From: an uncultured Flavobacteriaceae bacterium
Lineage (GTDB): Bacteria; Bacteroidota; Bacteroidia; Flavobacteriales; Flavobacteriaceae
Direction: 5' to 3'
Assembly (NCBI GenBank): GCA_905182295.1
Contig: CAJJAZ010000006.1
Coordinates: 124,001-188,000, forward strand
Length of the DNA: 64,000 nt
The notes under the pieces: model-generated
The model's input: only the letters and a program-made list of their open reading frames with translations
Told to the model about the DNA's origin: nothing
The model's database searches: none
Shown: in pieces, positions 15,169 through 17,394 of the stretch
Layout of the letters: every line of letters starts with the position of its first letter
Numbering within the stretch: the stretch's first letter is position 1
Made by a program: the position numbers and the translations under genes

Positions 15169-16287
15169 TTAGACACATATAGCTGCTACAATATCCCTAA
15201 TATTATGTAGAACAGTAGTTTGGAGATCCGATTTAAGAACGGACAAATCTACAATTCTATGAAAAGAGAACTTATTTTCCTGGTCAATAGCGTGAAATTC
15301 TGGTATAAATCTAATTTCACCAGCTTCTAAGACCTCCTTATATTGTATGGCCACTACACTGTCTTTAGGAATATGCTTATTCACTAAGTGGGGGTGAATA
15401 ACGCCTATATCTAAAAAGTTTTTCTGATTTTCTGGGATATCAAAATAGGCGTCTATTGGGTAACTACTATAAGATTCACAGGCTATAGAATTTACTGCTG
15501 AAAATAAGGCATGAAAAACCAATGCTCGGGAGACTTCTCTTTTGTAATCTTCAGGGTAGTGTCCTGCCTCAAAGAGTATCGTTGGCACACCCAGTTCTTG
15601 AAAATAATCACCCACACATTGGTTGTTAAAAGCGTCGTCGAACCTACCTATTTGATTTGGAATCATTTGTTGCAATGTATCATTGATCACTGCTATGAGC
15701 TTCATCGCTATTTCTCTAGATGGCGTTAAAGCGCAGTCTTTGTCTGCAGCAGGTGCTAGAAATGACATAGTAGCTGGCTTTGCAGGTGATCCAACACTGA
15801 AAATAGTCCTTTGGTCATGAAGGTTAAAACAAAAATCAGGAGATACATGGTCAAATACGGATTTTAAAAAAACACTTTCTGGTTGAGAAAAATCTTGAAA
15901 GTCTCTATTTAAGTCTACTTGATTCTTATTAAATCGTGTATATGCGCTTGCTCCATCTGGGTTAAGAATTGGTATAACAATTAGCGTGCACTGATTGAGT
16001 ATTTTATTGGATGTTTCGGAATCAGTGTTCAAAAAACCAATAAAATCTATTAATCCTTTGGTTGTAGTGGATTCGTTACCATGCATCTGAGACCACATTA
16101 AGATCGTTTTATTTCCAAATCCAAAACGGTAAACAGGAATAGAATTTCCATTTACAGACACACCAATAAGATCTTTAATAACAAAACTATCCCAACGTTC
16201 TGTGATTTGTTTTAGATCTGTCCATGGCAAATAGCGGCCTTCTATGGAAGGGTTTTTATAATTGAGGTGTGAAAAAGAATCTATCAA
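15169..16287 (-). CDS. M14-family zinc carboxypeptidase
   Basis: SQMHGNESTTT (HxxE), NPDGASAYTRFNKNQVDLNRDF, NLHDQRT, LFEAGHYPEDY. Confidence 0.88.
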   Translation of the reverse strand: MIDSFSHLNYKNPSIEGRYLPWTDLKQITERWDSFVIKDLIGVSVNGNSIPVYRFGFGNKTILMWSQMHGNESTTTKGLIDFIGFLNTDSETSNKILNQCTLIVIPILNPDGASAYTRFNKNQVDLNRDFQDFSQPESVFLKSVFDHVSPDFCFNLHDQRTIFSVGSPAKPATMSFLAPAADKDCALTPSREIAMKLIAVINDTLQQMIPNQIGRFDDAFNNQCVGDYFQELGVPTILFEAGHYPEDYKREVSRALVFHALFSAVNSIACESYSSYPIDAYFDIPENQKNFLDIGVIHPHLVNKHIPKDSVVAIQYKEVLEAGEIRFIPEFHAIDQENKFSFHRIVDLSVLKSDLQTTVLHNIRDIVAAICV

Positions 16288-16301
16288 AATATATTTATTA
16301 A

Positions 16302-16403
16302 TTACAAATGTAACAATTAGAATAATTACAATTGTAACTTACAATTATTTACATTTGTAATATAATTATCTCCTTCAAAACAGGATTTTGATTACATTTG
16401 TTA
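16302..16403. promoter_or_regulatory. Cluster of four palindromic operator-like boxes (TTACAwwTGTAA)
   Basis: TTACAAATGTAA (16302-16313), TTACAATTGTAA (16326-16337), TTACATTTGTAA (16349-16360), TTACATTTGTTA (16392-16403), in a divergent intergenic region. Confidence 0.7.
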
Positions 16404-16434
16404 CTTGCTGTAGTGGTGTTCATTATAAATAATA

Positions 16435-16461
16435 TTAAATTACTTATTATCAGTAATTTAA
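16435..16461. repeat. Perfect 10-bp inverted repeat, 7-nt loop
   Basis: TTAAATTACT-TATTATC-AGTAATTTAA. Confidence 0.75.
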
Positions 16462-16553
16462 ATTATCTTATCTAAAGTATTGATCAATATAATTACTTCA
16501 CAATTATTCAAATAAAATAAAATTACTATGATCATATAAATATTAAAGTTACA

Positions 16554-16997
16554 ATGATAAACAGTTCAGATTTCATAAAAAGATTACAAATAATCATTGA
16601 TTTTTATCAGCTTTCTGCTGCTACATTAGCAGATAAAATTGACGTACAAAGGTCTGGTATTTCACATTTATTGTCAGGAAGAAACAAGCCTTCTCTAGAG
16701 TTTGTTTTAAAGCTTATTAAGCAATTTCCAGAAGTAAATTTATATTGGCTACTCAATGGTGTAGGAAATTTTCCCGCTACCCTATCTGACACCATAGCGC
16801 CTAAAATCCAGGAGCCTATTATTTCAAAACACCTTAAAGAAAGCAGTCCTATTAACAAAGAAAAAGCGAATGAAATAACCAACCCAATTAATGAAGATAT
16901 AGTACGATCTATTCAAAACAAAAACCAAGGCGATATTGAATCCATTATTATTTGCTACAAGAATGGCAATTTTAAAGCCTATAAAAACATTGACTAA
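16554..16997 (+). CDS. XRE-family helix-turn-helix transcriptional regulator
   Basis: HTH: LSAATLADKIDVQRSGISHLLSGRNKPSLEFVLKL. Confidence 0.88.
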   Translation: MINSSDFIKRLQIIIDFYQLSAATLADKIDVQRSGISHLLSGRNKPSLEFVLKLIKQFPEVNLYWLLNGVGNFPATLSDTIAPKIQEPIISKHLKESSPINKEKANEITNPINEDIVRSIQNKNQGDIESIIICYKNGNFKAYKNID

Positions 16998-17022: not shown

Positions 17023-17394
17023 ATGAAACTTATATATATCACAGTATTGGCATTAGTATTGATAGCTTGCAATCCTCCTCAAAGAAATTGCACTGACTTT
17101 AAAACAGGTAGTTTTGAATTTACAGCTGAAATTAATGGCGAAACCACCACCACTTCGTTTTTCAGAAACGACACCTTAGAAGTAGAAAATTTTAATGGCA
17201 AAATTGACAGTAGTAGCATTAAATGGGTCAATGATTGTGAATACATACTTAAAAATCTCCATCCGGTAAATACTGCTGAGGAAACTCCACTATTAATAAA
17301 AATTCTGACCACCTCAGAAGATCGTTACACTTTTGAGTATGGGACAGTTGGAAATGCACAAAAAGCCCGTGGAACTGCTGTAAAAATCAAATAG
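17023..17394 (+). CDS. Small predicted lipoprotein of unknown function
   Basis: Signal peptide with lipobox (LALVLIAC) then beta-rich 120-aa protein. Confidence 0.75.
   Translation: MKLIYITVLALVLIACNPPQRNCTDFKTGSFEFTAEINGETTTTSFFRNDTLEVENFNGKIDSSSIKWVNDCEYILKNLHPVNTAEETPLLIKILTTSEDRYTFEYGTVGNAQKARGTAVKIK

Follow-up and report, generated by a model that had tools for sequence, protein, structure and literature searches.

A palindromic box array on divergent core promoters between XRE regulator and M14 carboxypeptidase genes in Flavobacteriaceae, a probable operator of the XRE protein

The window, a 64,000-nucleotide stretch of the genome of an uncultured Flavobacteriaceae bacterium, contains a cluster of palindromic boxes between two divergently oriented genes, one for an M14 metallocarboxypeptidase and one for a small XRE regulator. 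These boxes are conserved in relatives, depend on the presence of the XRE gene and overlap the promoter elements of the region. In our reading, to which we give a probability of roughly 85%, they are an operator dedicated to autorepression by the XRE protein and would be shared with the divergent M14 gene. The features concerned are as follows.

15169..16287, minus strand: M14 metallocarboxypeptidase of the cytoplasmic type, 372 aa (Pfam M14), divergent from the XRE gene
16302..16313, palindrome, no strand: box 1, TTACAAATGTAA, exact; its M14-proximal position is conserved
16305..16312, minus strand: predicted -7 element of the M14 gene, TACATTTG, inside box 1
16326..16337, palindrome, no strand: box 2, TTACAATTGTAA, exact, with a symmetric centre and no -7 element
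16349..16360, palindrome, no strand: box 3, TTACATTTGTAA, exact
16350..16357, plus strand: candidate -7 element of the XRE gene, TACATTTG, inside box 3
16392..16403, palindrome, no strand: box 4, TTACATTTGTTA, one mismatch
16393..16400, plus strand: candidate -7 element of the XRE gene, TACATTTG, inside box 4, with a predicted leader of about 149 nt
16549..16560, no strand: box 5, TTACAATGATAA, a degenerate copy that covers the XRE start codon and has two mismatches in the window
16554..16997, plus strand: XRE (HTH_3) regulator, 147 aa, the proposed binder of the boxes
17023..17394, plus strand: small putative lipoprotein, its gene downstream of XRE and often conserved with it

The earlier note on this DNA had described four palindromic boxes with spacings of 24, 23, and 43 bp. 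Both points are borne out, with boxes 1 to 3 being exact copies of the 12-bp palindrome TTACAWWTGTAA and box 4 differing at one position, but the count of four overlooked the fifth, degenerate box over the XRE start codon. The genome-wide scan that the note had suggested as a check found exact matches in the assembly (1,358,744 bases, 61% complete) at boxes 1 to 3 and nowhere else, and the reversed control pattern gave 0; by a first-order model, the expected number of exact boxes is 0.003 for the local AT-rich region of 311 bp and about 0.1 for the whole window. Allowing one mismatch gave 35 sites versus 26 for the reversed control, so specificity resides in the exact cluster. The note had also placed the boxes on roughly the same DNA face, which holds approximately but not strictly, because at 10.5 bp per turn the spacings amount to 2.29, 2.19, and 4.10 turns, or offsets of about 103, 69, and 34 degrees. 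Its further half-site at 16339 is not conserved in the genus. In a comparison with three close relatives, the boxes and the region of the start codon form islands of conservation; the end of box 3 differs in one of the three, and TTACATTTGT of box 4 is conserved in 4/4 within the genus. The 150 bp that separate box 4 from the XRE start (16404-16553) are very AT-rich, likewise in the genus, and are probably a long leader. An 18-nt repeat occurs twice in this stretch (16427-16444 and 16510-16527), and a comparison of the intergenic region with Rfam matched no family.

Conservation in relatives, another of the suggested checks, is nearly complete: at least one box lies at 149/149 XRE loci and two or more at 145/149, counting 69 orthologue loci together with 80 named loci from GTDB genomes, two sets that partly overlap in species. 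Upstream of the 69 orthologues, a count that allowed up to one mismatch gave 237 boxes, versus 8.3 +/- 3.1 in first-order random sequence, with at least one box in 69/69 and two or more in 65/69. The 80 named Flavobacteriaceae loci, which include Flavobacterium, Zobellia, Lutibacter, and Winogradskyella, all have two or more boxes and an M14 gene divergent from XRE, and in 78 of them an Lrp/AsnC regulator lies beyond M14. Spacings between nearest neighbours peak at 24 bp (39 cases) and 35 bp (26 cases), and lesser clusters lie at 13/14, 22/23, and 34 bp. The preferred spacings of 13/14, 24, 35, and 66 bp have a common offset of about 0.25 to 0.33 turn. An offset of around 0.3 turn is as expected for neighbouring dimers that would touch in a fixed geometry, and in view of the fixed spacings a cooperative operator is plausible.

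The XRE protein scores 30.7 bits against Pfam HTH_3 (cut-off 23), and its AlphaFold2 model has a confident five-helix HTH at the N-terminus and a conserved beta-hairpin at the C-terminus, joined by a disordered linker. Foldseek matched the model to the HTH of C.AhdI, DdrO, 434 Cro, P22 c2, and SinR, with weak overall E-values (best 4e-3) since the matches are limited to the HTH domain. Of 150 relatives, 116 have an orthologue; so do 288 (96%) of 300 near-complete (at least 97%) Flavobacteriaceae genomes, nearly always as a single hit. A label as phage repressor was rejected, as was a HigA-type antitoxin, for which TIGR02607 gave 21.8 bits against a cut-off of 47.7 and the ORF list held no toxin-like neighbour. 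The start-codon box has its own pattern of conservation: TTACAATG occurs at 69/80 XRE starts in the named relatives and at 0/203 starts of the neighbouring M14, lipoprotein, TerC, and Lrp genes. It has one mismatch in most relatives and is invariant within the genus. An A at -3 is known to favour translation in this group, which does not account for the whole start-codon motif.

Losses of the XRE gene bear on which protein the boxes follow. The gene was undetected in 12 near-complete genomes of the family, 11 of which still have M14. One of these M14 loci (L216, genome G349) was excluded: the contig, which still carries boxes, breaks off 236 bp upstream of M14, so that the XRE gene probably lies in an assembly gap. 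In 8 of the remaining 10 M14-Lrp loci no box was found within 500 bp when up to one mismatch was allowed. The other two (L214 and L215, genus g167) have a single box upstream of M14, exact in one and with a mismatch in the other, and L214 also has another match, with one mismatch, 324 bp away; this residual box is possibly a remnant or the site of another binder. In one genome (G062) the order DinB-Lrp-M14-lipoprotein-TerC is intact and the XRE gene alone is missing, and in most genomes without XRE the lipoprotein gene is still beside M14. These losses are confined to a few genera and so represent few independent events. The converse case is a genome (G033, locus L033) that keeps XRE and the boxes and has no M14 match. 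In other Flavobacteriales families, XRE homologues that are 28-55% identical usually have TTACATTTGTAA near their start, several of them without an M14 match in the fetched flank, and three divergent XRE orthologues (L233, L237, L243) are without a box. The array is thus found nearly wherever the XRE regulator occurs across the Flavobacteriales, and the boxes follow the presence of XRE, not that of Lrp or M14. Of the two binders that the earlier note had put forward, it is the XRE protein that conservation and co-occurrence strongly support as the candidate.

In Flavobacterium, the sigma-A -7 element is TAHHTTTG at -12 to -5 (PMC6847099; see also PMC9723704), and the -33 motif is weak in this group (PMC6847099). 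Between 16230 and 16600 (371 bp) there are exactly three TAHHTTTG motifs, each inside a box and each pointing outward to M14 or XRE. The earlier note was right in placing the array between the peptidase and XRE genes but missed this overlap with divergent core promoters. Counted from the element in box 1, M14 transcription is predicted to start near 16300 with a 13-nt leader, and XRE transcription near 16362 (box 3) or 16405 (box 4); by calculation, box 2 covers position -33 of the box-1 (M14) and the box-3 promoter alike. TAnnTTTG occurs upstream of M14 in 79/80 relatives and lies within a box in 63 of them, and at the XRE-less loci 6/10 M14 promoters have the motif, none inside a box. On the XRE side, a proximal box is present at 45/68 loci, in most cases at a distance of 40 bp from the start codon; it is exactly TTACATTTGTAA in 39/45 and has the centre TT in 45/46. 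This near-start box (about -40) is absent in the window's genus, Zobellia, Maribacter, and similar genera, where a box lies about 160-185 bp away instead. Boxes 3 and 4 would therefore give a leader of 149-192 nt, and the assignment of the XRE promoter of the window to one or the other is uncertain.

Paired boxes are restricted to the XRE locus. Two exact boxes 1-31 bp apart, with coordinates matched to XRE hits, were found in 18 of 150 genomes, always at the XRE gene except for one extra match in G106, where a short contig ends in a reversed repeat of sequence from that genome's XRE locus; the reversed control pattern gave two matches. A search for a wider regulon in complete genomes found lone exact boxes about as often as the reversed control. 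G080 and G025 were the exceptions; of 16 lone sites inspected in these two, 11 lie inside ORFs, and no common gene was seen. In G025 a cold-shock-protein-like gene (L247:1776-2005) has TTACAATG at its start and, 21 bp farther upstream, a copy of TTACATTTGTAA, a layout that matches that of the XRE start; this gene is perhaps a second target in G025, or a chance match.

Judging from the sequence and its conservation, XRE dimers would bind each 12-bp palindrome, and neighbouring dimers are probably in contact, given the preferred spacings of 24 and 35 bp, which could make binding cooperative. With -7 elements in boxes 1, 3, and 4 and box 2 at -33, bound XRE should block RNA polymerase at both divergent promoters, and through this block XRE would repress M14 and its own gene, along with the lipoprotein gene behind it, which is probably co-transcribed with XRE. 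The box over the start codon may add a roadblock to XRE transcription, and repression would presumably be relieved by a signal. Because other targets are not apparent in most genomes, the system looks like a dedicated local switch.

Other binders could in principle occupy such boxes. The Lrp/AsnC regulator was the second candidate of the earlier note, and its position beyond M14 in nearly all named relatives would suit this role, but at the ten XRE-less loci it remains beside M14 (75-95% identical) after the array has gone, eight having no box and two the residual one, and XRE genes outside the family have upstream boxes where the fetched flanks show no Lrp match; we consider binding by Lrp extremely unlikely. 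A BlaI/MecI/CopY-type repressor is suggested by the boxes themselves, since every exact box includes the operator core TACANNTGTA and box 2 agrees with the cop consensus of 16 bases, RNYKACANNTGTMRNY (PMC7253601). However, PF03965 was not found in the assembled part of this genome (61% complete) or in G076, it is present in G062 and G044, which both lack boxes, no PF03965 gene adjoins the array, and the pairs occur only at the XRE locus, which together make such a binder highly improbable.

The boxes might also serve no operator at all and be core promoters (TAnnTTTG) in tandem whose palindrome arose by chance, an idea that draws on the gene-ward TACATTTG in three of them. It can hardly be right, as the palindrome reaches past the -7 element at either end, neither box 2 nor the start-codon box contains such an element, and M14 promoters at XRE-less loci have TAnnTTTG with no palindrome. 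Closer to the preferred reading is the same operator with XRE activating one of the two promoters, as a mixed activator and repressor like restriction-controller or lambda CI proteins. The several boxes, the position of box 2 between the promoters, and the resemblance of the XRE HTH to the controller protein C.AhdI are all compatible with this, but a box directly over the -7 element at both outward promoters argues for repression, and we regard activation as unlikely, at perhaps one chance in eight or so. Autorepression by XRE, shared with M14, remains our preferred reading of the array.

In the M14 protein, residues H69, E72, H157, and E240 are invariant in 32 sequences, following the HxxE...H...E pattern; by analogy, the first three would be metal ligands and E240 catalytic. 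The AlphaFold2 model (pLDDT 91) resembles bacterial and animal M14 carboxypeptidases, with PDB fold matches to 4b6z and 4a37. Inspection of the N-terminus by eye revealed no evident signal peptide, and identity as the murein tripeptide amidase MpaA was rejected (NF007897 21.1 bits, far below the equivalog cut-off of 157). In this genus the gene appears to start with TTG (16285-16287, minus strand) with no in-frame ATG found nearby, and in most relatives it starts with ATG at about the same place. Many of these genomes also have a longer M14 paralogue (L098, L102-L105) of about 500 aa, 31-39% identical, with no boxes in its upstream region. The lipoprotein had no match in Pfam or NCBIfam.

To our knowledge, few regulator-operator pairs have been defined in Flavobacteriales. 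The array and its proposed binder offer a testable pair whose regulator occurs in the great majority of the near-complete Flavobacteriaceae genomes sampled (96%) and whose operator is placed on the unusual TAnnTTTG promoter of the phylum. As a probable self-regulating switch, the array is ordinary in kind and apparently undescribed, and a search of open-licence literature for the box sequence or the XRE-M14 pair returned nothing relevant except CopY/BlaI.

XRE/HTH_3 repressors such as those of 434 and P22, SinR, and C.AhdI-type controllers have autoregulatory multi-site operators. The present locus resembles these in its small HTH_3 protein, several near-identical palindromes, and divergent core-promoter overlap, a comparison that draws on general knowledge for the operators and on Foldseek for the fold. 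Unlike them, it is not phage or mobile, its regulator being a near-universal single-copy gene of Flavobacteriaceae, and it combines Bacteroidota TAnnTTTG promoters with a start-codon box and an M14 carboxypeptidase partner. ImmR-ImmA, where an XRE repressor stands beside a metalloprotease, is similar in that the XRE regulator adjoins a metallopeptidase gene; here, by contrast, the enzyme is an M14 carboxypeptidase and not an ImmA-type protease, and the genes are divergent instead of in one operon and not mobile. An ImmA/ImmR-like loop, where the M14 carboxypeptidase would trim the conserved C-terminal beta-hairpin tail of XRE and so relieve repression, is very improbable. The operators of CopY/BlaI, with the cop box consensus RNYKACANNTGTMRNY and its core TACANNTGTA (PMC7253601), come closest in sequence, with the 10-bp core in boxes 1 to 3 and box 2 fitting at 16/16 positions. 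In this group, sequence alone is insufficient to assign TACANNTGTA sites to CopY/BlaI, and the present boxes differ from theirs in forming an array at a single locus and in their probable binder, an XRE protein instead of a winged-helix Penicillinase_R (PF03965).
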